The position numbers and the translations under genes are program-made. From Streptomyces sp. NBC_01498 (lineage in GTDB: Bacteria; Actinomycetota; Actinomycetes; Streptomycetales; Streptomycetaceae), in assembly GCF_036327775.1 (NCBI RefSeq), contig NZ_CP109598.1:5220001-5284000 (forward strand): DNA of 64,000 nt, read 5' to 3'. Within the stretch, counting starts at the first letter, position 1, and each line of letters opens with the position of its first letter. Under the pieces are notes generated by a model, which had not been told where the DNA came from, searched no databases, and worked only from the letters and a program-made list of their open reading frames with translations. Below are positions 41,258-53,047 of the stretch, piece after piece.

Positions 41258-41695
41258 GTGAGCGCGACCGCGGACCACGCGGAGGAACGGACCAACGTTG
41301 CCGCGAGGCTTGGGTTCGAACCCGGACAGGTGGTCCAGGAGATCGGCTACGACGACGACGTCGAGCAGGAGCTCCGTGAGTCCATCGAGGCCGTCATCGG
41401 CCAGGAGCTCGTCGACGAGGACTACGAGGACGTGGCCGACGCCGTCGTGCTGTGGTTCCGCGACGACGACGGTGACCTGACGGACGCGCTGGTGGACGCC
41501 ATCGGTCTGATCGAGGAGGGCGGCGCGGTCTGGCTGCTGACGCCCAAGACCGGCCGTGCCAACTACGTCGAGCCCAGCGACATCAACGAGGCCGCCCAGA
41601 CCGCCGGCCTGGCTCAGACCAAGAGCATCAACGCCGGCAAGGACTGGACGGGCAGTCGGCTGGTCACGCCCAAGGCGGCGAAGTCCAAGCGCTGA
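41258..41695 (+). CDS. DUF3052 family protein
   Basis: 145 residues from GTG 41258 (AGGAGG 7 nt upstream). Acidic centre (YDDDVEQELRESIEAVIGQELVDEDYEDVADAVVLWFRDDDGDLTDAL) and C-terminal EGGAVWLLTPKTGR..NYVEPSDINEAAQTAGL, as in the actinobacterial DUF3052 family. Function unknown. Its fixed position between aceE and the peroxiredoxin gene, also seen in M. tuberculosis, suggests a link to acetyl-CoA or thiol metabolism, which is inference only. Confidence 0.9.
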   Translation: MSATADHAEERTNVAARLGFEPGQVVQEIGYDDDVEQELRESIEAVIGQELVDEDYEDVADAVVLWFRDDDGDLTDALVDAIGLIEEGGAVWLLTPKTGRANYVEPSDINEAAQTAGLAQTKSINAGKDWTGSRLVTPKAAKSKR

Positions 41696-41957
41696 GACCA
41701 GGCACGGGAGAGCGGGCGCCGAGCAGGCACCGCATCCGAGCGCGACAGCCGGAGCGGGGGCCCGGACGACCTGCCCCGTGATCCTCGTACGCACTGACGG
41801 CCCCCGTCGGCACCCGCCGCCGGGGGCCCTTGCGTAGGCTGGCGGAATCGGCCGCGGGGCCCGTCGCGCACGGTCCGGCGCGGCCGGGAGAGCGGCGAGG
41901 AGCCGGAGCCCGGTCCCACGGAGCCGGGGTGCGAGGGAACGACGGGGAGGACGGCGG

Positions 41958-42536
41958 ATGACCGGGGCAGTGACGGGCACAGGGGCGGCGGCGGCGGGGA
42001 CGGGCAGCGGCGGGATCGCGGTCGGCACCGTGGCGCCGGACTTCACCCTGAAGGACAACCACGGGCGGACCGTAAGGCTCTCCGACTTCCGGCGCGGCCC
42101 GGACGGCGACGGCCACGACGGTGACGATCGCGAAGGTCAGGGCGGTCGGGGCGGTGACGACGGCGCCAGGAACGTGGTCCTGCTCTTCTACCCCTTCGCC
42201 TTCACCGGCGTCTGCACCGGTGAGCTGTGCGCGCTCCGTGACGAACTGCCCACCTTCGTCAACGACGACACCCAGCTGCTCGCCGTCTCCACCGACTCCA
42301 TCCACACCCTGCGGGTCTTCGCCGAGCAGGAAGGGCTGGAGTACCCGCTGCTGTCGGACTTCTGGCCGCACGGGCGGATCTCGCGGGCGTACGGGATCTT
42401 CGACGAGGACAAGGGCTGCGCGCTGCGCGGCACGTTCATCATCGACAAGGAGGGCGTGGTGCGCTGGTCGGTCGTCAACGGCCTGCCGGACGCGCGCGAT
42501 CTCGACGACTACGTCAAGGCCCTCGCCGCTCTGTGA
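41958..42536 (+). CDS. ahpE: AhpE/BCP-like peroxiredoxin with acidic insertion
   Basis: 192 residues. Thioredoxin-fold peroxiredoxin: GTVAPDFTLKDNHGRTVRLSDF, then FYPFAFTGVCTGELCALRDEL with the peroxidatic Cys86 and a second Cys at 91 (Cx4C, as in BCP/Prx5 types), and FDEDKGCALRGTFIIDKEG. It reduces H2O2, peroxynitrite or lipid peroxides; mycobacterial AhpE uses mycothiol/mycoredoxin. Between the two N-terminal strands, residues about 45-71 form a Gly/Asp-rich insert (GPDGDGHDGDDREGQGGRGG) that lengthens the protein from the usual 150-160 residues. The N-terminus also has a Gly/Ala-rich tail. Confidence 0.9.
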   Translation: MTGAVTGTGAAAAGTGSGGIAVGTVAPDFTLKDNHGRTVRLSDFRRGPDGDGHDGDDREGQGGRGGDDGARNVVLLFYPFAFTGVCTGELCALRDELPTFVNDDTQLLAVSTDSIHTLRVFAEQEGLEYPLLSDFWPHGRISRAYGIFDEDKGCALRGTFIIDKEGVVRWSVVNGLPDARDLDDYVKALAAL

Positions 42537-42757
42537 CGACAACTCGCCACGTGATGTGACCGTCGTCGGCGAAAAGCCTTGTGGGAACGGAATTGTCCGC
42601 CGTAAACCGCACAAGGGGTGGGAACCGGTCACTAGGATCCAGTCGTTGATCCGAATGCCAACCGCACCAGGGGGCGCGCGACGCGCGGCGACGGCTGCCG
42701 GAGCGGCCGGGGCCGGGGCCCGTCCGCGCCCCTGTGAGACTCATCAAGGGAGGACTC
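42537..42757 (+). promoter_or_regulatory. promoter region of the first terD gene
   Basis: GGGAAC at 42620-42625 and GTTG at 42645-42648 (19 bp apart) resemble an ECF-sigma (SigR-like) promoter, with one mismatch in the -35 and a spacer one base long. TAGGAT at 42633-42638 is an alternative -10. Weak evidence. Confidence 0.3.
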
Positions 42758-43333
42758 GTGGGAGTCAGCCTCAGCAAGGGCGGCAACGTGTCGCTGACCA
42801 AGGCCGCGCCCAACCTGACCGCGGTCACCGTGGGTCTGGGCTGGGACGTCCGTACGACCACCGGCACCGACTTCGACCTCGACGCCAGCGCCCTGCTGAC
42901 GAACGCCGAGGGCAAGGTCGCCGGCGACGGGAACTTCGTCTTCTTCAACAACCTGCGGAGCCCCGACGGCTCCGTCGAGCACACCGGTGACAACACCACC
43001 GGTGAGGGCGAGGGCGACGACGAGGCGATCAAGGTCAATCTCGCCGGTGTCCCGGCGGACGTCAGCAAGATCGTGTTCCCGGTCTCCATCTACGAGGCGG
43101 AGGCCCGCCAGCAGTCCTTCGGTCAGGTGCGCAACGCGTTCATCCGCGTCGTCGACCAGGCGGACAACAACGAGCTGGCGCGGTACGACCTGACGGAGGA
43201 CGCCTCGACCGAGACGGCGATGGTGTTCGGCGAGCTTTACCGAAATGGCGCCGAATGGAAGTTCCGCGCCATCGGACAGGGGTATGCCTCTGGCCTGCGT
43301 GGTATCGCGCAGGACTTCGGAGTCAACGTCTGA
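42758..43333 (+). CDS. terD: TerD family stress protein, copy 1
   Basis: 191 residues from GTG 42758, with GGGAGG upstream; exact TerD length. Conserved segments: [60 protein letters not shown] and [19 protein letters not shown]. The acidic loops bind Ca2+. TerD proteins are cytosolic, confer tellurite/stress resistance and in Streptomyces affect development and calcium-linked processes. It is 73% or so identical by eye to the next gene, indicating tandem duplication. Head of the ter locus. Confidence 0.95.
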
Positions 43334-43546
43334 GCCGCGGTTCCGCCCCCGTCCGGCGCCGCGCGTTCCCGTGCGGCGCCGGACGCGCCTCACCGTGCGG
43401 GTCCCGGCCCGCACACGACCAGGTACGAGCGGCGAGTGCGCGCGGCCCGTACGAGCACCACGTACACGCATGTGCACACGCACGACGGGTACGGCGTCAG
43501 GCGCGCCGCATCCGGTATCTCGTCACCTCGGGGAGGACTCACCATC

Positions 43547-44122
43547 ATGGGCGTCACACTCGCCAAGGGGGGCAATGTCTCCCTCTCCAAGGCCGCACCG
43601 AATCTCACCCAGGTGTTGATCGGTCTCGGCTGGGACGCGCGCTCCACCACCGGAGCCGACTTCGACCTCGACGCCAGCGCGCTGCTCTGCCAGTCGGGGC
43701 GGGTGCTCGGCGACGACTGGTTCATCTTCTACAACAACCTCACCAGCCCCGACGGCTCCGTCGAACACACGGGCGACAACCTCACCGGTGAGGGCGACGG
43801 CGACGACGAGTCGCTGCTGGTCAACCTCACGGCCGTGCCCGCCCATGTCGACAAGATCATCTTCCCGGTGTCGATCCATGACGCCGACACCCGGGGGCAG
43901 ACCTTCGGCCAGGTCAGCAACGCGTTCATCCGGGTCGTCAACCAGGCCGACGGCCAGGAGCTCGCCCGGTACGACCTGACGGAGGACGCCTCCACGGAGA
44001 CCGCGATGATCTTCGGCGAGCTGTACCGCTACGGGGGCGAGTGGAAGTTCCGGGCCGTGGGACAGGGGTACGCGTCGGGCCTGCGGGGCATCGCTCTAGA
44101 CTTCGGGGTCAACGTTTCGTAA
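43547..44122 (+). CDS. terD: TerD family stress protein, copy 2
   Basis: 191 residues from ATG 43547, GGGAGG upstream. Same family landmarks: [70 protein letters not shown]. It has a Cys (ALLCQSGRV) where copy 1 has a Thr. 213 bp of non-coding sequence separate the copies, so each may have its own promoter. DUF475 follows after 51 bp, likely co-transcribed, as TerD and TerC proteins form a membrane-associated complex. Confidence 0.95.
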
Positions 44123-44173
44123 AGCAGTACTCTGCGCGGGGGAAAACCCGTTCATCACAAGATGGGGTAGGCA

Positions 44174-45307
44174 GTGATCCTGAAAACCTTCGGCTGGTCG
44201 TTCGCCATTACGGCGCTCGGCCTTGCCTTCGCGGCCTGGCAGTGGGGGTGGGAGGCGTTCGGGATCGTACTGATCCTGTCCATCCTTGAGATCTCTCTGT
44301 CGTTCGACAACGCCGTTGTCAATGCGGGGATCCTGAAGAAGATGAATGCCTTCTGGCAGAAGATCTTCCTCACCGTCGGCATCCTGATCGCCGTGTTCGG
44401 AATGCGACTGGTGTTCCCGGTCGCCATCGTGGCGATCAGCGCCAAGGTCGGCCCCATCGAGGCCGTCCAACTGGCCCTGGACAAGCCGGAGCAGTACGAG
44501 GCGCTGGTCACCGACGCGCACCCGGCGATCGCCGCCTTCGGTGGCATGTTCCTTTTGATGATCTTCCTGGACTTCATCTTCGACGAGCGTGAGTTCAAGT
44601 GGCTCGGCTGGCTGGAGCGCCCGCTGTCGAAGCTGGGCAAGGTCGACATGCTGTCGGTCTGCGTCGCGCTGATCATTCTGCTCGTCACGGCGATGACGTT
44701 CGCCACCCACGCGCACACCAGCACCGGGTACCAGGACAAATCGGCGACCGTACTTCTATCCGGTGTCGCCGGTCTGATCACCTATCTCGTGGTCAACGGC
44801 CTCTCCAGCTTCTTCGAGAACAAACTCGAAGAGGAAGAGGAACGTGAACACGAGGAAGAGGAGAAGGCCAAGGCGGAAGGCAAGCAGGTGTCGGCCGTCG
44901 GCCTCGCCGGCAAGGCCGCGTTCTTCCTCTTCCTCTACCTCGAAGTCCTGGACGCGTCCTTCTCGTTCGACGGAGTCATCGGCGCCTTCGCCATCACGAA
45001 CCACATCTTCTGGATGGCGCTCGGCCTCGGTATCGGCGCGATGTATGTCCGGTCGCTCACCGTCTACCTCGTCCGTCAGGGCACGCTCGACGACTACGTC
45101 TATCTGGAGCACGGCGCGCACTACGCGATCGGCGCGCTCTCCCTCATCCTGCTCATCACCATCGAGCACGAGATCAGCGAGATCATCACCGGCCTCATCG
45201 GTGTGGTGCTGATCGCCGCCTCCTTCTGGTCATCAGTGGTCCGCAACAAGCGAGTTGAGGCTGAAGGTGGCGAAGATTCGGAGGACAGGACAACAGTCCA
45301 CGTCTGA
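44174..45307 (+). CDS. DUF475/TerC-like integral membrane protein
   Basis: 377 residues, GTG start. Nine or so hydrophobic segments with the TerC hallmarks, two repeated acidic membrane motifs: ILEISLSFDNAVVNAG near 37-52 and YLEVLDASFSFDGVIGAFA near 255-273. An internal charged cytosolic loop is extremely Glu/Lys-rich (LEEEEEREHEEEEKAKAEG near 215-234). TerC proteins are predicted or shown to export metals, notably Mn2+, and to support secretion of exoenzymes; DUF475 is the actinobacterial branch. It sits between TerD genes, in line with a TerC/TerD membrane complex. Confidence 0.9.
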   Translation: MILKTFGWSFAITALGLAFAAWQWGWEAFGIVLILSILEISLSFDNAVVNAGILKKMNAFWQKIFLTVGILIAVFGMRLVFPVAIVAISAKVGPIEAVQLALDKPEQYEALVTDAHPAIAAFGGMFLLMIFLDFIFDEREFKWLGWLERPLSKLGKVDMLSVCVALIILLVTAMTFATHAHTSTGYQDKSATVLLSGVAGLITYLVVNGLSSFFENKLEEEEEREHEEEEKAKAEGKQVSAVGLAGKAAFFLFLYLEVLDASFSFDGVIGAFAITNHIFWMALGLGIGAMYVRSLTVYLVRQGTLDDYVYLEHGAHYAIGALSLILLITIEHEISEIITGLIGVVLIAASFWSSVVRNKRVEAEGGEDSEDRTTVHV

Positions 45308-45354
45308 GTCCGCCCTCGGGGTGTGACCAGCGGGGGACAGCGGGAACGCTCTTG

Positions 45355-45395
45355 AGCGGGGCGGTCTGAGGCGGAAGCCTTCCGGCCGCCCCGCT
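45355..45395. terminator. 10-bp hairpin terminator after the DUF475 gene
   Basis: AGCGGGGCGG at 45355-45364 pairs perfectly with CCGCCCCGCT at 45386-45395; an inner AGGC/GCCT stem strengthens it. Confidence 0.75.
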
Positions 45396-45470
45396 GTTCA
45401 TGTTCGCGGGGCGCCGCGCGGGGCGTCCGTCGCGTCCGACGACCGGGGAAAGATGGGGGTGGGGGCAGGC

Positions 45471-46202
45471 ATGGCCTTCTGGGACAATCTGTGGCGTGGC
45501 AAGGCGGTGGAGTTCGACTCGGGCAGCTCCTCGAACTCGATCGAGCTGACCAAGCGCCGCCCGACGGTGTCGCTCACCAAGCAGGGCGCGGCCACCGGGA
45601 ATCTGCGGGTGAATCTGTCGTGGCGGATGCGGACGTCCGACATCGAGGGACGGTCCCGGCAGAGCGGACTGCTGCGCCATCCCTTCAAACTCTTCAAGCC
45701 CGACGTGGTGCAGGCGCACACCCAGGGTGTGGTCAACGTCGACCTCGACATCGGGTGCATGTACGAACTGGCCGACGGCACCAAGGGTGTGGTGCAGCCG
45801 CTCGGCGGCTTCTTCGGCAGCCTCAACGAGGCGCCCTACATCAAGCTCAGCGGCGACGACCGCTTCGGCGCCCCGTCGGGCGAGACGATATTCATCAACC
45901 TCGACCAGCGTGACGAGATCAAACGGCTGCTCGTCTTCGTCTACATCTACGACCGCACTCCGGCCTTCGACCGCACACACGCCCACGTCACCCTGTATCC
46001 GAGCAACGGTCCCCGGATCGAGATCGAGTTGGACGAACGGGCTCCGCAGGCGCGGTCCTGCGCGGTGTTCTCGCTCCAGACGGTCAAGGGCGAGCTGGTG
46101 GTGCGGCGCGAGGTGAAGTTCGTGTACGGCTTCCAGGCGGAGCTGGACCGGCTGTACGGGTGGGGGTTGCAGTGGGGCCGGGGCTACAAGACGAAGACCT
46201 GA
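45471..46202 (+). CDS. TerA/TerD-related stress protein
   Basis: 243 residues from ATG 45471. It begins MAFWDNLWRGKAVEFDSGSSSNSIELTKRRPTVSLTKQGAA and has the divergent TerD-like beta sandwich of TerA-type proteins (NLSWRMRTSDIEGRSRQSG, VDLDIGCMYELADGTKGVVQPLG, FVYIYDRTPAFDRTHAHVTLY). The Ca-binding Asp loop of TerD is replaced by DLDIGCMYEL. It is the fourth gene of the plus-strand part of the ter locus. Likely partner of the TerD proteins at the membrane; exact role unknown. Confidence 0.85.
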   Translation: MAFWDNLWRGKAVEFDSGSSSNSIELTKRRPTVSLTKQGAATGNLRVNLSWRMRTSDIEGRSRQSGLLRHPFKLFKPDVVQAHTQGVVNVDLDIGCMYELADGTKGVVQPLGGFFGSLNEAPYIKLSGDDRFGAPSGETIFINLDQRDEIKRLLVFVYIYDRTPAFDRTHAHVTLYPSNGPRIEIELDERAPQARSCAVFSLQTVKGELVVRREVKFVYGFQAELDRLYGWGLQWGRGYKTKT

Positions 46203-46278
46203 CCAGACCTGACCTGATCACGGGCTGACCTCCGCCCCCCGGTGACCGGGCGGCGGAGGGTGCCGATACGGACGGTCC

Positions 46279-47232
46279 CTACGGGCGGAGGAACTGGGGG
46301 CCCATCGGGGGCAGCCGGAAATTCGGGTCCGGAGCGGGAGCCGCCGCGGCGGCGGGCTGTGGATAGCCGTAGCCGGGGGCCGTCTGCGGCACCGGCGGCG
46401 CCGAGGGCCCCGGCGCGGGTGCCTGCGGGTAGCCGTAGCCGGAATTCGCCGACGCCGGCTGCGGGTAGCCGTAGGCCGGCGGGGCGGACGCGGGCTGCGG
46501 GTAGCCGTAGCCGGGCGGGCCCTGCGGAGACGGGAAACTCGGCTGGTGGATGGGCGGCACGGGCGATGACCCGGGCGCGCCGTGGACCGGAGCGGTCCGG
46601 TCACCCGGGCCGGACTGGCCCGGAAGCATGGCGGTCGCCGCCTCGGCGTCCGCGCCCGGCGCCGCCCCGCCGGCGCCCTCGGTCTCGTCGACCGAGATGC
46701 CGAAGGCGGTCGCCAGCCCGATCAGGCCGGTCGGATACCCCTGGCCCACGGCGCGGAACTTCCAGCCGGTCCCGCGCCGGTACAGCTCACCGCAGATGAT
46801 CGCGGTCTCCTCACCCGTCTCCGGGCGTACGTCGAACACGGCCAGCGGATCGCCGTCGGCCCGGCCCGCGTCGTACAGCAGGACCCGCAGGTCGGTCACA
46901 TGCCGGAAGGTCGCCCCGTCCGAGGACGCCGCGAGCACCACCTGGTCGACGCTCGGGTCGAGCCCGGCCAGATCCGCCTCGACGGCGTCGGTCAGCCCTT
47001 CGGGCACCTGCTTCTTCGGCAGATGCCTGACCAGGCCCGACGGGTGGCGGGGCTGGTTGTAGAAGACGAAGTCCTCGTCGGAGCGCACGCGTCCCTCGGG
47101 ACCGAGCAGCAGGGCCGACGCGTCCACGTCGGGCACCCCCGTCCCCGGTGTCCAGCGCAGCACGGCCCTCACGGCCATGGCGTCGAGGGGAACGTTCGAG
47201 CCCTTCACCATCGCGTGCGTCATGCCCGTCAT
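46279..47232 (-). CDS. TerD-domain protein with YGYPQP-repeat tail
   Basis: 317 residues from ATG 47232 (GGGGAGG 4 nt upstream). Residues about 1-185 form a TerD domain ([51 protein letters not shown]). The C-terminal 130 residues are low-complexity: Ala/Pro/Gly-rich, with four copies of a YGYPQPASA-like decamer and a final LPPMGPQF. Such Tyr/Pro/Gln repeats are typical of disordered scaffolds that bind SH3/WW-like or self-associate. It is divergent from the CitE-like operon, sharing a 190-bp promoter region. The tail makes it distinct from the other TerD copies. Confidence 0.88.
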   Translation of the reverse strand: MTGMTHAMVKGSNVPLDAMAVRAVLRWTPGTGVPDVDASALLLGPEGRVRSDEDFVFYNQPRHPSGLVRHLPKKQVPEGLTDAVEADLAGLDPSVDQVVLAASSDGATFRHVTDLRVLLYDAGRADGDPLAVFDVRPETGEETAIICGELYRRGTGWKFRAVGQGYPTGLIGLATAFGISVDETEGAGGAAPGADAEAATAMLPGQSGPGDRTAPVHGAPGSSPVPPIHQPSFPSPQGPPGYGYPQPASAPPAYGYPQPASANSGYGYPQAPAPGPSAPPVPQTAPGYGYPQPAAAAAPAPDPNFRLPPMGPQFLRP

Positions 47233-47422
47233 CCTGCCTCCCCGCAGGCCGCGCGGACAACGTGGGGGCATGGTGGAGGGAGGGGGAGCGGGGCGGAGGC
47301 AGGGGCGAGAAGTGGACGAGTTACCTGAAATTCATGCGCGTTTGGAACTCCCGACTCCCGTCCATACGTACTATTACCGGCCACATGTCAACGCGACCAC
47401 CGTGGCAGTACGGGGGATCAAA
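47233..47422. promoter_or_regulatory. divergent promoter region between the tailed TerD and the CitE-like operon
   Basis: 190 bp. Purine-rich G runs on the left, then an AT-richer part with TTGGAA at 47342-47347 and TACGTA at 47365-47370 (17-bp spacing), a possible promoter for the lyase operon. Confidence 0.35.
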
Positions 47423-48586
47423 ATGCGTCATTTCGGTCATATCTCGCCCGCTGCTCGGCAAGCGTTGTTCCACCAGGAGCCCGGCGAGTTCACCTCGGAC
47501 TCGCCCGCCCGCCTGCTCTCGGCGGGACTCGGGGCCACCCTCTACAGCCCGGCGACCAGGACACGACTGGCCGACGACGTGGTCAAACTGGTCGGGCGCG
47601 GCGTCGTCTCCATGGTGCTGTGCCTGGAGGACTCCATCGACGACTCCGAGGTCGAGTGGGCCGAGGAGAACCTCGTCCGGCAGTTGGCCGATCTTCATCT
47701 ACGCGGAGTGGAGCTGCCGCTCCTCTTCGTGAGGGTCCGCGAGCCCGAGCAGATTCCGGACCTCGTCCGCCGGCTCGGCGCCGCCTCCCACCTCCTGTCC
47801 GGATTCGTACTGCCGAAGTTCACCGAGGAGCGCGGCGTGCCGTTCCTCGAAGCGCTGATTTCGGCCGAACACGACAGCGGGCAGCGGCTCTTCGCGATGC
47901 CCGTGCTCGAATCCCCCGAGCTGCTGCACCTGGAGTCGCGGGCCGAGACGCTCTCCGGCATCGCCCGCACCGTCGACAAGTACCGGGAGCGGGTGCTGGC
48001 GCTCCGGCTCGGCGTCACCGACTTCTGTTCGGCGTACGGGCTCCGCCGCTCGCCCGACATGACCGCGTACGACGTCCGCATCGTCTCGGCCGTCATCGCC
48101 GACGTCGTGAACGTGCTCGGCCGCTCCGACGGCACCGGCTTCACGATCACCGGCCCGGTGTGGGAGTACTTCCGGCTACACGAGCGGATGTTCAAGCCCC
48201 AGCTGCGCCACAGCCCGTTCCTCGAAGGGCGTGCCGAGGAGCTGCGCAACGCCCTCATCGAACACGATCTCGACGGGCTGCTGCGCGAGATCCAGCTCGA
48301 CCAGACCAACGGTCTGGTGGGCAAGACCTGTATCCACCCCTCCCACGTCATGCCCGTGCACGCCCTGTCCGTGGTCAGTCACGAGGAGTTCAGCGACGCC
48401 CAGGACATCCTGCGGCCGGAACGGGGCGGCGGAGGAGTGCTGCGCTCCTCGTACACGAACAAGATGAACGAGGTGAAGCCCCACCGCGCCTGGGCCGAGC
48501 GCACGATGCGGCGCGCGGAGGTGTTCGGTGTCGCCCGTGAGGACGTCGGTTTCGTGGACCTGCTGGCGGCCGGGCTGGTGGAGTGA
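47423..48586 (+). CDS. CitE-like C-C bond lyase of the HpcH/HpaI family, Ter-associated
   Basis: 387 residues from ATG 47423, GGGGGA upstream. HpcH/HpaI TIM barrel: SMVLCLEDSIDDSEVEWAEENL (metal Glu/Asp), PLLFVRVREPEQI, FVLPKFTEERG, LFAMPVLESPELLHLESRAETL and GLVGKTCIHPSHVMPVHAL. CitE relatives cleave or form acyl-CoA or beta-hydroxyacid C-C bonds with Mg2+. In published comparative genomics of ter loci a CitE-like lyase belongs to a conserved enzyme set with PRTase, HAD and ATP-grasp genes. It overlaps the next start (GTGA), so translation is coupled. Confidence 0.88.
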   Translation: MRHFGHISPAARQALFHQEPGEFTSDSPARLLSAGLGATLYSPATRTRLADDVVKLVGRGVVSMVLCLEDSIDDSEVEWAEENLVRQLADLHLRGVELPLLFVRVREPEQIPDLVRRLGAASHLLSGFVLPKFTEERGVPFLEALISAEHDSGQRLFAMPVLESPELLHLESRAETLSGIARTVDKYRERVLALRLGVTDFCSAYGLRRSPDMTAYDVRIVSAVIADVVNVLGRSDGTGFTITGPVWEYFRLHERMFKPQLRHSPFLEGRAEELRNALIEHDLDGLLREIQLDQTNGLVGKTCIHPSHVMPVHALSVVSHEEFSDAQDILRPERGGGGVLRSSYTNKMNEVKPHRAWAERTMRRAEVFGVAREDVGFVDLLAAGLVE

Positions 48587-51315
48587 GCACGACCGGTGGA
48601 GTGAGCACGACCGGGCGCGACGGCGATCCGTCCCGCAACGATCGGTCTCACAATGATCGGTCCCACAATGATCAGTACGCCCACGAGAACCACAACGACA
48701 ACGACGGCGACAACGCCCACGACGACGACCGGTACGACAATGACAGGTACGGGACGATCGAGGCAGAGGAGTACGGACACGTGGTGTGGTCGGGGTCATG
48801 GGTCACCGAACGGCTGGGCGTGGAGCTCACCGGCGGCGACGAGGTGCGCGAGCTGCTGGGCATGGCGCTGCGCCGCAACCCCAGACGCGCCCATCTACTC
48901 GTCTCGAACGTGCTCGGCAAGCACGTCCCGCAGCGGCCCTCGGTCGTGCACGGCGCGGGCGTGACCCTCGGCGCACGCGTACGGGACCTGCTGGGCGACG
49001 CCGTCGGACAGGCGGTGATAGTCGGCTACGCGGAGACCGCGACCGGCCTCGGCCACTCGGTGGCCGACGGTGTGGCGGGAGCCCCGTATCTGCACTCCAC
49101 CCGCCGCCCGGTGCCCGGTGTCCCCACCGCGGGCGGCTTCGAGGAGTCCCACTCGCACGCCACGTCGCATCTGCTGCTCCCCGAGGACCCGGAGCTGCTG
49201 GCCGGTGACGGACCGCTGGTCCTGGTGGACGACGAGTTCTCCACCGGGAACACGGTCCTCAACACGATCCGCGCCCTGCACGCCCGCCGTCCGCGCCGGT
49301 GGTACGTGATCGTCGCCCTGGTCGACATGCGCTCGCCCGCCGACCGGGGGCGGCTCGCCGAGTTCGCCCGGGAGATCGGCGCCCGCGTCGACCTGGTGGC
49401 GACGGCCTCGGGCACGGTCGGCCTCCCCGGGGACGTCCTGGCCCGGGGACAGGCCCTGGTCGCGGAGTACGAGGCGCGGGCCGTCCCGTCGCCCCCGCCC
49501 CCGTACGCCCGGGACACGGGCGGCGACGGGGTCGTACGGGTGCCGCTCGGCTGGCCCGCCGGGCTGCCCGACGGCGGGCGGCACGGCTTCACCCCGGCCC
49601 ACCGCGCCCGCCTGGAGGCCGCCGCCCCCGGCATGGCCGCCGTACTCGCCGAGCACCTCGGCGACGCCCGGCGCGTCCTCGTCCTCGGCTTCGAGGAGCT
49701 GATGTACGCGCCCCTGAGGCTCGCCCTGGAACTGGAACGGACCCTCACCGGCGCCGAGGTGCGCTACTCGACCACCACCCGCTCGCCCGTCCTCGCCGTC
49801 GACGACCCCGGCTACGCGATACGCAGCCGTCTCGTCTTCCCGGCGCACGACACCGCCGCCTTCCCGGCCGTGGAGGGCGCCGAGGGAGGCGGCGGGGACG
49901 GCGCCGGCGACCGGTACGCGTACAACGTCGCCGGTGGCGGCTTCGACGCCGTCGTGCTGATCGTGGACTCCCCGGCGGACTCCCCGGAGCTGCGGGCCCC
50001 CGGCGGTCTGCTCGCCCAGCTCGCCGACCGGGTCCCCCGCGTCCTGCTCGGCGTCGTCCCCTCGTACGTCCCCGCTCCAGTCCCCGCCCCCGGCTCCCTC
50101 TCCGCGCACGCCCCCGACCGGCAGGAACCCGCCATGCTGCCCCCGCCCCTCCGCGGCCCCGCCTTCTCCTCGTACGCCGCGGACGACGTCGGCTGGCTCC
50201 TCCAGGACCTGTCCGACGTCGAACTCGAAGCCCCGACGGAGGAGCGCGAGGAAGCGATACAGAGCGGCGGCGCCCACTACGCGGAGTCGCTGCCCGTCGA
50301 GTACCAGCCCAGCGCCGCCTACCAGGACCTCTTCCGGTCCGCGCTCGCCACCTCCGCCGCCCGGATCGCCCGCGCCGTCGGCAGCGTCACCGAGACCGTG
50401 CTGGCCGAGCACCCGCACCGGTACCCCGACCCCGCCTCACGGGAAGCCGCCGAGGCCCGGCCCGTCCTGGTCTCGCTCGCCCGCGCCGGCACCCCCGTCG
50501 GCGTCCTCATGCGCCGCTGGGCCCGCCACCGGCACGGCCTGGACCTGCCGCACTACGCCCTGTCCATCGTGCGCGGCCGGGGCATCGACACCAACGCCGT
50601 CCGCTGGCTCGCCGCCCACCACCGCCCGGCCGACATCGTCTTCGTCGACGGATGGACCGGCAAGGGCGCCATCACCCGCGAACTGGCCGACGCGCTGCGC
50701 GACTTCCCCGACTTCCACCCCGAGATCGCCGTCCTCGCCGACCCCGGCGGCTGCGTCCGTACCTACGGCACCCGTGAGGACTTCCTCATCCCCTCCGCCT
50801 GCCTCAACTCGACGGTCTCCGGCCTCATCTCGCGCACGGTGCTGCGCGCCGACCTCGTCGGCCCTGACGACTTCCACGGGGCCAAGTACTACCGCGAACT
50901 CGCCGGCGCCGATGTGTCCGGCTACTTCCTGGACACCGTCACCGCCCGGTTCGACGAGGTCAGGGACGCGGTGGACAGCGAGGTGAAGGAACTCCTCGCC
51001 GCCGACCGCGCACCCACCTGGGAGGGCTGGGCCGCCGTCGAACGGATCAGCGAGGAGTACGGCATCCACGACGTCAACCTCGTCAAGCCCGGCGTCGGCG
51101 AGACCACCCGCGTCCTGCTGCGCCGCGTCCCCTGGAAGATCCTCGCCCAGCGGGGCGCGGGCGCCGACCTCGACCACGTACGGCTGCTCGCCGAGCAGCG
51201 CGGCGTCCCGGTCGAGGAGGTCGACGGCCTGCCCTACACCTGCGTCGGGCTGATCCACCCCCGCTACACCCGGGGCGCCACGGGCGCCGACGGTACGGCG
51301 GTGACCAGCGCGTGA
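48583..51315 (+). CDS. Ter-associated double phosphoribosyltransferase-TRSP protein
   Basis: 910 residues, GTG overlapping the upstream stop (GTGA). After an Asn/Asp/His-rich extension (about 15-60) comes a PRTase domain (PRTase_2 type) with PRPP-binding loop LVLVDDEFSTGNTVLNTIR near 212-230. A TRSP domain, named from its TRSP motif, follows (EVRYSTTTRSPVLAVDDPGY near 388-407). The C-terminal half, from about 560, is a second PRTase-like domain (PRTase_1; such proteins are often labelled StiP), with VSLARAGTPVGVLMRRW, IVFVDGWTGKGAITREL and CLNSTVSGLISRTVLRADL. A nucleotide-like product is predicted. A later GTG at 48781 with AGAGGAG is an alternative start, but codons before it keep strong third-position GC. 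Confidence 0.88.
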   Translation: MSTTGGVSTTGRDGDPSRNDRSHNDRSHNDQYAHENHNDNDGDNAHDDDRYDNDRYGTIEAEEYGHVVWSGSWVTERLGVELTGGDEVRELLGMALRRNPRRAHLLVSNVLGKHVPQRPSVVHGAGVTLGARVRDLLGDAVGQAVIVGYAETATGLGHSVADGVAGAPYLHSTRRPVPGVPTAGGFEESHSHATSHLLLPEDPELLAGDGPLVLVDDEFSTGNTVLNTIRALHARRPRRWYVIVALVDMRSPADRGRLAEFAREIGARVDLVATASGTVGLPGDVLARGQALVAEYEARAVPSPPPPYARDTGGDGVVRVPLGWPAGLPDGGRHGFTPAHRARLEAAAPGMAAVLAEHLGDARRVLVLGFEELMYAPLRLALELERTLTGAEVRYSTTTRSPVLAVDDPGYAIRSRLVFPAHDTAAFPAVEGAEGGGGDGAGDRYAYNVAGGGFDAVVLIVDSPADSPELRAPGGLLAQLADRVPRVLLGVVPSYVPAPVPAPGSLSAHAPDRQEPAMLPPPLRGPAFSSYAADDVGWLLQDLSDVELEAPTEEREEAIQSGGAHYAESLPVEYQPSAAYQDLFRSALATSAARIARAVGSVTETVLAEHPHRYPDPASREAAEARPVLVSLARAGTPVGVLMRRWARHRHGLDLPHYALSIVRGRGIDTNAVRWLAAHHRPADIVFVDGWTGKGAITRELADALRDFPDFHPEIAVLADPGGCVRTYGTREDFLIPSACLNSTVSGLISRTVLRADLVGPDDFHGAKYYRELAGADVSGYFLDTVTARFDEVRDAVDSEVKELLAADRAPTWEGWAAVERISEEYGIHDVNLVKPGVGETTRVLLRRVPWKILAQRGAGADLDHVRLLAEQRGVPVEEVDGLPYTCVGLIHPRYTRGATGADGTAVTSA

Positions 51316-52286
51316 ACTCGCCTGCTCCGAAAGGCTTTTCCGAGAACGTGCCTGCCCCGCACGACCCTCCCGGCAACGGGACTCCCCGCGACGCGCCCGT
51401 CCCCCCGGGGACCAACGCGCAGGTCCCCGCCCGGTCCGACGCGCCCGTGCCCGTGCCCGCCCGGACGCTCGTCGCCAGCGACCTCGACCGCACCCTCATC
51501 TACTCGGCCGCCGCCCTCCACCTCACCATGCCCGACGCCGAGGCCCCCCGGCTCCTGTGCGTCGAGGTCTACGGGCACAAGCCCCTGTCGTACATGACCG
51601 AGACCGCCGCCGGGCTGCTGCGCGACCTCGCCGGCAGCGCGCTGTTCGTCCCCGCCACGACCCGCACCCGGGAGCAGTACCTCCGTGTCCGGCTGCCGGT
51701 CCCCGCCCCCCGGTTCGCGATCTGCGCCAACGGCGGCCATCTGCTGGTCGACGGCGAGTCCGACCCCGCGTGGCAGGCCGAGGTGCGGAACCGTCTCGAC
51801 GAGGGCTGCGCCCCGCTCGGGGAGGTCCGGGAACACCTGATCGCCTCGGCCGACCCCGCCTGGCTGCTCAAGGAACGCGTCGCCGAGGACCTGTTCGCGT
51901 ATCTCGTCGTCGACCGCGCGCTGCTGCCCGGGGGATGGGTGGGGGAACTCGCCGCATGGGCCGGCGAGCGCGGCTGGGCGGTCTCCCTCCAGGGCCGGAA
52001 GCTCTACGCCGTACCCCGGCCGCTCACCAAGAGCGCCGCCATGCGGGAGGTCGCCCGGCGGACCGGCACCGAACTGACCCTGGCGGCCGGGGACTCACTT
52101 CTCGACGCCGATCTGCTGCTGGCCGCCGACCGGGGCTGGCAGCCCGGTCACGGCGAGCTGGCCGACTCCGGCTGGCGCGCCTCGCACGTGGAGACCCTGG
52201 CCGAGACGGGGGTGGCCGCCGGGGAGGAGATCCTGCGGCGGCTCAACCGCGCTGTTTCTCCTTGCGGTTCTCCTTGCGGGACCTGA
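51312..52286 (+). CDS. HAD-superfamily phosphatase of the Ter-associated operon
   Basis: 324 residues, GTG overlapping the PRTase stop (GTGA). A 50-residue Pro-rich tail precedes HAD motif I ASDLDRTLIYS near 54-64, later a Lys (LTKSAAMREV) and motif IV ELTLAAGDSLLDADLLLAA. The Cof-like cap and ATTRTREQYLRVRLP suggest a sugar- or nucleotide-phosphate phosphatase. Third gene of the CitE-PRTase-HAD operon. Its last 44 bp overlap the 3' end of the convergent dedA gene; the resulting C-terminal RAVSPCGSPCGT is not family-like. Confidence 0.87.
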   Translation: MNSPAPKGFSENVPAPHDPPGNGTPRDAPVPPGTNAQVPARSDAPVPVPARTLVASDLDRTLIYSAAALHLTMPDAEAPRLLCVEVYGHKPLSYMTETAAGLLRDLAGSALFVPATTRTREQYLRVRLPVPAPRFAICANGGHLLVDGESDPAWQAEVRNRLDEGCAPLGEVREHLIASADPAWLLKERVAEDLFAYLVVDRALLPGGWVGELAAWAGERGWAVSLQGRKLYAVPRPLTKSAAMREVARRTGTELTLAAGDSLLDADLLLAADRGWQPGHGELADSGWRASHVETLAETGVAAGEEILRRLNRAVSPCGSPCGT

Positions 52287-52890
52287 CCACCCGCCTGACC
52301 ACGAAGGCCACGAGCGCGAGCGCCACGACACCCAGGATGATCTTGGAGTACGTGGAGACATAGCCGCTGACCTTGGTCCAGTTCTCGCCGAGCAGGTAAC
52401 CGGCCATGATGAAAGCCGTGTTCCAGATGGCGCTGCCGAGCGTGGTCAGACCGAGGAAGACGGGCAGCGGCATTCGCTCGACGCCCGCCGGCACGGAGAT
52501 CAGACTGCGGAAGACGGGGACCATCCGCCCGAAGAAGACGGCCTTCGTGCCGTGCCGGGCGAACCAGTCCTCGCTCTTCTCTATGTCACTGGCCTTCACC
52601 AGCGGCACCTTGGACGCGAGGGCGATGGTCCGTTCGCGGCCGAGCCAGGCACCCAGCCCGTACAGCGCGAGCGCGCCCACGACCGAGCCCGCGGTCGTCC
52701 ACAGAACGGCGGCGAGCAGACCCATCTTTCCGGCGCCCGCCGCGAAGCCCGCCAGCGGCAGGATCACCTCGCTGGGCAGGGGAGGGAACAGATTCTCCAG
52801 GGCGATGGCCAGGCCGGCGCCCGGTGCTCCGAGCGTGTCCATCAAGCTGGTGACCCACTGCTGGACGCTGCCTGCGATCATGACTCCCAC
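52243..52890 (-). CDS. DedA family membrane protein
   Basis: 215 residues. DedA/SNARE-associated fold: ENLFPPLPSEVILPLAGFAA, then FGRMVPVFRSLISVPAGVERMPLPVFLGLTTLGSAIWN, with the conserved Glu, Arg and Pro residues of the family. DedA proteins recycle undecaprenyl-phosphate or other lipids and are linked to membrane potential homeostasis. The C-terminus is very basic (RRVVRSRKENRKEKQRG). Starts: GTG 52890 or ATG 52881, neither with a perfect ribosome site. It overlaps the HAD gene tail to tail by 44 bp. Confidence 0.9.
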   Translation of the reverse strand: MGVMIAGSVQQWVTSLMDTLGAPGAGLAIALENLFPPLPSEVILPLAGFAAGAGKMGLLAAVLWTTAGSVVGALALYGLGAWLGRERTIALASKVPLVKASDIEKSEDWFARHGTKAVFFGRMVPVFRSLISVPAGVERMPLPVFLGLTTLGSAIWNTAFIMAGYLLGENWTKVSGYVSTYSKIILGVVALALVAFVVRRVVRSRKENRKEKQRG

Positions 52891-53047
52891 GGTGTGTGCC
52901 TGCTCGGACGGTGTCCTGGGACGGACCCCACGGATTATTGAGGGTGCCCGCAGTCCGGGGACGCATGCCTGGTGGGAGTGTCGGCCGCGTCACCGGAGGC
53001 GGTCGTCGCACCGCCGGACACGCGGTCGTCGCACCGCCGGACGCGGG

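Follow-up and report, generated by a model that had tools for sequence, protein, structure and literature searches.

What do the enzymes encoded next to a set of ter stress genes in Streptomyces sp. NBC_01498 do, and do they belong with the Ter proteins at all? This question is raised by the genes at positions 42758..52286 of a 64,000-nucleotide stretch of its 7.27 Mb, single-contig genome (NZ_CP109598.1, positions 5,220,001 to 5,284,000; hereafter the window). Our analysis identifies the locus as the Streptomyces form of a predicted and already known kind of system, real and for the most part well described, to which we add corrections of strand and domain content, a test of the coupling between enzymes and ter genes together with its exceptions, evidence against the name 'StiP', and a promoter motif like those of extracytoplasmic function (ECF) sigma factors that is shared by both operons. 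The reading that we favour, at a probability of roughly 60%, is an envelope-stress-responsive Ter locus with synthesis of a ribosyl compound from phosphoribosyl pyrophosphate (PRPP).

A first-pass annotation, made from the sequence alone, had listed two TerD proteins, a DUF475/TerC protein, a TerA-like protein, a tailed TerD, a lyase, a phosphoribosyltransferase (PRTase) protein and a haloacid dehalogenase (HAD) phosphatase, and Pfam matches and open reading frames show that all of these are real and correctly placed. The enzymes are encoded on the plus strand: a CitE-like C-C bond lyase (C-C_Bond_Lyase, a TIM barrel; 47423..48586; PF15617, E 8.8e-121), a large PRTase protein (48583..51315; identified by Pfam, AlphaFold models and structure matches) and a HAD-superfamily phosphatase (51312..52286), which resembles trehalose phosphatase (6d3v/6cj0, E 1.4e-9) and matches no Pfam family over its cut-off. 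The large protein had been read as PRTase-TRSP-PRTase; these three domains are present (PRTase_2, aa 91-277; TRSP, aa 330-478; the PRTase-like 'StiP' domain PF11202, aa 529-786), and a fourth, a C-terminal PELOTA_1 domain of the kink-turn (K-turn) RNA-binding type (aa 813-892; Pfam E 2e-34), had been missed. Upstream on the same strand lie TerD 1 (42758..43333; PF02342, E 6.9e-86), TerD 2 (43547..44122; PF02342, E 3.3e-83), a DUF475 membrane protein of the TerC superfamily (44174..45307; PF04332 at E 2.2e-132 and PF03741 TerC at E 1.6e-20, both over cut-off, with only E 0.001 against plasmid TerC) and a TerA-like protein (45453..46202; 35% identity to plasmid TerA over 222 aligned columns, pair E 4e-39). 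The last of these scores under the Pfam TerD cut-off, and three proteins at the locus score over it. The third, TerD 3 (46279..47223; PF02342, E 3.1e-43), with a Gly/Pro/Tyr-rich repeated tail, had been placed in one series with its neighbours; the gene is there, on the minus strand, and the lyase therefore opens a divergent unit of its own, with a conserved motif ahead of it. As part of the favoured reading, strand and promoter motif suggest at least three transcription units: TerD-TerD-TerC-TerA, the divergent tailed TerD, and the enzyme operon.

The arrangement is widely kept. A locus scan of species genomes, from which the best 80 of 589 confirmed loci were retained, all 80 from Streptomyces, gave the order lyase-PRTase-PF11202-HAD in 74; at the other six, the sequence preceding PF11202 is shorter than 810 bases. 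Five other actinobacterial families contributed 20 loci, hand-picked from 39 PF11202 genomes outside the genus (two are shorter than 20 kb since the contig ended), and in every one the four parts of the enzyme set are collinear; order kept in 74/80 and 20/20 loci is not a product of chance. The complete series, peroxiredoxin through HAD, is found in 66/80 Streptomyces loci, and eight further loci with the enzyme order start part-way and are mostly short. PRTase_2-TRSP and PF11202-PELOTA form a single protein in 76 of the 78 Streptomyces loci in which fusion could be counted. A TerD-type gene lies within the fetched stretch at 16 of the 20 loci from other families; the remaining four all belong to one family, and when extended, three of them carry TerA-, TerC- and TerD-type genes ~8-14 kb from the lyase, the fourth having TerD ~18 kb from PF11202. 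The annotation had also taken the two 4-base GTGA overlaps as translational fusion with equal production of the three enzymes. Both overlaps are present in the window, and such an overlap is possible at the PRTase/HAD junction in 62/80 Streptomyces loci; at the lyase/PRTase junction it is possible in just 21 of the 74 loci counted, which makes fusion too strong a term. The overlaps suggest translational coupling and say nothing on stoichiometry, and the inference of equal production goes too far.

Co-occurrence points the same way. PF11202 was found in 79 and TerD in 90 of 345 Actinomycetes genomes, and all 79 genomes with PF11202 have TerD, although kinship among the genomes means that these counts are not independent, and no weight is placed on their Fisher value. 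Within a set of 197 Actinomycetota genomes the same ten carry PF11202 and TerD, each pair within ~5 kb by the printed coordinates. In a separate count the Ter-type lyase (E <1e-110; next best match 6e-14) occurs in 49/197 genomes, exactly those with PF11202 (49/197). Plasmid records number 2567 for PF11202 and 2633 for TerD, with nearly equal counts by genus (Escherichia 439/439, Klebsiella 1052/1079, Salmonella 350/351). The enzymes are thus strongly coupled to ter genes in Actinomycetes and on enterobacterial plasmids, and the enzyme core can also live alone, as rhizobial plasmids discussed below show. TerD plasmid records number 32 for Streptomyces and 17 for Rhodococcus, and neither genus is among the ten commonest for PF11202.

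A second line of evidence comes from the intergenic regions. Promoter sets were built from the window and 67 of the 80 loci, the rest having no aligned TerC or TerD start, and these loci are related to one another. Upstream of TerD 1 the 68 aligned sets have GGGAACC.GTCACTAGGATC.A..CGTTGATC in common, and the reduced motif GGAAC-N18-CGT precedes TerD 1 in 67/68 and the lyase in 61/68, against a background of 0.0055 per 225 bases on both strands of the same loci with these sites removed. By this motif count, the window carries GGGAAC-N18-CGTTGATC upstream of the ter operon (42620..42651, plus strand) and GGAAC-N18-CGTAC upstream of the enzyme operon (47344..47371, plus strand). Because the TerD 1 alignment was already in view when the motif was chosen, the counts in Streptomyces are a description of it and no test; independent support comes from its recurrence in the second intergenic region and at TerD loci of other families, where 10/17 loci from four families carry GGAAC-N17/18-CGT no more than 250 bases ahead of the first TerD (background 0.018 per 300 bases). 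An initial guess at the motif, GGAAC-N15-17-GTC, was rejected, being found upstream of TerD 1 in 17/68 and of the lyase in 0/68 sets. The ter and enzyme operons of Streptomyces therefore share a conserved ECF-sigma-like promoter motif, which is newly added here; its scarcity upstream of the lyase in other families confines the case for shared control of the enzyme operon to this genus. Searching the whole genome for the exact 19-base promoter block with up to 3 mismatches returned the TerD 1 site (0 mismatches) and two others (3 each), too few for a wider regulon to be drawn.

The -35 element GGAAC and the spacing agree with published sigmaE sites of S. coelicolor. That list includes sco2368 among the targets of sigmaE, which responds to envelope stress, and the sco2368 protein rose after vancomycin; the published site for this gene lies 317 bases upstream (PMC6767563). 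That site recurs with 0 mismatches in four of the 80 loci, within the peroxiredoxin match and 277-311 bases before TerD 1, and this matching position leads us to treat TerD 1 as the probable sco2368 orthologue. The sequence comparison suggests that the conserved intergenic motif is a better candidate promoter than the published sco2368 site.

Lyase residues E69, D70, R104, K132, E163, D200 and H305 are kept in 25/25 non-Streptomyces rows, and D57, D59, T61, G260, D261 and D265 of the HAD phosphatase in 27/27. Both PRTase-type domains are predicted to adopt PRTase folds by AlphaFold models (alignment A2 with 83 hand-chosen sequences, A4 with 19) and structure matches. The annotation had held that the coupling would fall if the PRTase domains lacked PRPP-binding residues, an objection that applies in part. 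Measured against the canonical PRPP-loop motif, the residues are intact in PRTase_2, with the loop present in 118/118 cases, and the loop is missing from PF11202, in which a near-invariant, non-canonical PRPP-type loop, DxWTGKG (DxWTGKGxI), stands in its place in 127 of 129 relatives (120 listed out of the 792 that a phage query found, plus three others, five locus proteins and the window). One domain dominates the match lists of the fold searches, and no fold is proposed for TRSP.

Pfam and NCBI attach the name 'cysteine protease StiP' to PF11202, also on resistance plasmids, and these database names are all that speaks for the idea that the domain is a protease processing Ter proteins. The best cysteine column of the domain is filled in only 46/129 relatives, and 10/129 have no cysteine in the domain at all; the PRTase fold is predicted with a mean confidence (pLDDT) of 90.7. 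Absence of a conserved cysteine together with this fold leads us to reject the cysteine protease reading, and we regard such processing as very improbable. The 50 listed fold-search matches include no protease, which proves nothing alone. The listings and passages searched for the origin of the name describe no protease activity; one paper among them has the phrase 'cysteine protease StiP' (PMC12111023). It is therefore doubtful that the name has a catalytic basis. The problem matters because at least one paper now counts stiP among metal-resistance genes (PMC13239750).

What PF11202 does beside PELOTA is harder to read. The PELOTA domain is related in fold and sequence to the L7Ae/PELOTA K-turn RNA-binding domain, and RNA binding itself is predicted from that kinship. 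The sequence of the four-domain protein found nothing among solved structures up to E 10; a PF11202-PELOTA profile found only L7Ae-type and related RNA-binding chains and no PRTase, so that the PRTase half is recognised by fold alone. The Foldseek list for the PF11202-PELOTA model is weak, its best match being PyrR (E 8.6e-4), with pyridoxal phosphate-dependent enzymes following from E 1.6e-3 at low TM-scores. The two halves thus resemble PyrR and L7Ae/YbxF in fold; they differ from PyrR in giving no PyrR match by profile search of solved structures and in having DxWTGKG supplant the canonical PRPP loop. One could imagine that PELOTA holds a K-turn RNA and that the DxWTGKG domain ribosylates it, swaps a base into it or senses it, as a form of stress-dependent editing or reading. 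If so, PF11202-PELOTA would be a new kind of PRTase-fold enzyme acting on, or gated by, structured RNA, and the Streptomyces Ter response, induced with the Ter proteins by envelope stress, would depend on a ribosyl transfer linked to RNA and not on a plain small-molecule signal. We consider both the RNA-directed role and the new enzyme type to be unlikely: no RNA partner was found, Rfam gave nothing at gathering score across 41500-53000, and a single fusion was seen among the 120 listed PF11202 relatives. A metagenomic protein of 622 aa (P0172) joins PF04446 to PF11202-PELOTA. PF04446 is the family of the tRNA-His guanylyltransferase Thg1.

The favoured synthesis of a ribosyl compound draws on gene content, gene order, co-occurrence, predicted folds, active-site residues and the shared promoter motif, and from these we infer the order of the reactions, what the acceptor is, which sigma factor acts, and that product and Ter proteins meet. 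The ter and enzyme operons would both be activated by a sigma factor of the ECF type, either sigmaE or another whose promoter is similar. The lyase, PRTase_2 and HAD phosphatase may then provide three plausible steps in PRPP-based synthesis, with PF11202, tethered to PELOTA, performing or gating a later, fourth step. By stripping the 5'-phosphate, the HAD phosphatase could release a nucleoside-like or ribosyl compound, which TerD, TerA and TerC proteins might bind or carry at the membrane. This last link follows a published proposal (PMC7824862). The Bcs3 protein of the Hib capsule, with its PRTase-like CriT and HAD-type CrpP parts, offers a parallel in that a PRPP-dependent PRTase-like enzyme is coupled to a HAD enzyme, and it matches in fold; it makes a capsule polymer, however, and the passages seen describe no lyase, PELOTA or Ter partners for it (PMC10299916). 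By analogy, the PRTase-fold enzyme could add ribose-5-phosphate from PRPP through an oxygen of a larger acceptor (glycan, lipid or protein), which the HAD enzyme would trim with no free nucleoside arising. We judge this unlikely, though the best placed of the alternatives, as ordinary base PRTases match the fold equally well, the module shows no glycan gene, and the CitE-like lyase and PELOTA have no place in such a route. The RNA-directed role comes next in our ranking, followed by mere neighbourhood of the two gene sets and last by the protease.

Among the closest known systems, the Ter enzymes of IncHI2 and Pseudomonas plasmids include relatives of PRTase_2/TRSP, PF11202, the lyase and HAD beside TerA, TerC and TerD; they differ in having ATP-grasp and TerB genes, the present locus having neither and a DUF475-type TerC, and here PRTase_2-TRSP and PF11202-PELOTA are fused in one protein. 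Searched by tblastn with the two plasmid ATP-grasp proteins, none of the 20 actinobacterial loci from other families gave a match. The Acinetobacter jumbo phage ME3 (L025) likewise has its TerD-like, PRTase, HAD and PF11202 genes grouped in a single run, although these are phage-borne and PRTase_2, HAD and PF11202 are separate genes. Two IMG/VR contigs (L108, L109) carry PRTase/TRSP, HAD and PF11202 relatives, the ter set of L109 comprising TerA, TerB, TerC, TerD and ATP-grasp. The proposal that the locus represents an undescribed system does not stand: it was predicted in 2012, in a paper whose title reportedly proposes nucleoside or nucleotide signal synthesis for Ter systems. A 2021 paper describes Ter PRTases and HAD enzymes in terms of such synthesis and the ME3 system as Ter signal synthesis (PMC7824862).

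Several observations weigh against the favoured reading, which rests on genes, predicted folds and motifs, its chemistry being predicted from these. None of the 129 PF11202 relatives keeps the canonical PRPP loop. The motif lies upstream of the lyase in 3/20 genomes of other families (23 rows, three genomes twice), and its -10 element is CGTT or CGTA where most printed sigmaE sites, in the part of the list seen, end in CGTC or a near form. ATP-grasp accompanies the enzyme module on the IncHI2 and Pseudomonas plasmids, unlike here, and ATPgrasp_Ter has no match over cut-off in the window's own genome (best 27.2 bits, 29.1 required); the family is not specific, as a control matched 13/14 genomes, 12 of them over cut-off. 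TerD occurs without PF11202 in 11/90 genomes, ten of which have a single match (E 1e-10 to 5e-62), whereas G443 has nine. Finally, a rhizobial plasmid related to p42d, searched whole, gave 0 TerD matches in 446,819 bases.

These TerD-only genomes and the rhizobial plasmids would fit a further alternative, in which inheritance alone has kept the ter and enzyme genes side by side and their functions are separate. Four rhizobial plasmids (L143, L024, L145, L146) hold PRTase, PF11202 and a HAD-like or hypothetical gene, and no TerD is annotated in the stretches displayed; the coupling that had been claimed, strong in Actinomycetes (all 79 PF11202 genomes have TerD), is for this reason not universal. 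On R. etli plasmid p42d (L143, 10753-14009), where no TerD is annotated within the 25 kb displayed, the PRTase, PF11202 and HAD-like genes have flagellar/type III secretion export genes ~5-8 kb away; its HAD-like protein has the identical accession to that on the related TerD-free plasmid. Rhizobium plasmids account for 41-42 PF11202 records, and the genus is outside the ten commonest for TerD, hence at most 17 records. Against separate functions, linkage is seen in six actinobacterial families, on two Pseudomonadota plasmids and in a phage, in differing gene orders, and both operons in Streptomyces have the promoter motif in common, which makes mere neighbourhood improbable. A PF11202 protein at least 99% identical occurs on 33 plasmid records, most of the listed ones from Phaseolus vulgaris.

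As far as our literature search shows, no experimentally identified product has been named for the module since the 2012 prediction. S. coelicolor is a genetically tractable host with the sco2368 orthologue, in which the enzyme operon is expected to follow, as it does in 74/80 Streptomyces loci. The shared ECF-like promoter gives an inducer to try, vancomycin being the predicted one via an ECF sigma factor, and the conserved residues give exact mutation targets.

The locus had been called a complete Ter locus, which overstates its content: ATP-grasp is absent, and neither TerB nor the TerF with a von Willebrand factor A (vWA) domain was found there, their matches in the same genome lying elsewhere (TerB at 6802716 and 5121958; TerF at 5662813 and 3492968). 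This genome (G000) has 16 TerD-domain matches, one of which, at 6800214, adjoins the TerB match at 6802716 in a second ter cluster. In family f74 the position of the tailed TerD is held by a same-strand TerD-vWA (TerF) gene (L111:5434-6801), and in one genome of family f67 (L132:4229-9867, minus strand) the gap between ter genes and enzymes includes an Hsp70-type gene and a sub-threshold zinc-ribbon protein. PADLOC assigned no family to the seven locus proteins submitted (TerD 2 excluded). On the upstream side the conserved neighbour is a peroxiredoxin (AhpC/TSA; 41958..42536, plus strand; PF00578, E 1.8e-35); at the other end a DedA-like gene with a VTT domain converges on the locus. A published table records antisense transcription of sco2364 and its orthologues in three species of Streptomyces (PMC3765725). 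The tail of TerD 3 contains a 36-bp repeat (46423-46519) that encodes a GYGYPQPAS-like motif.
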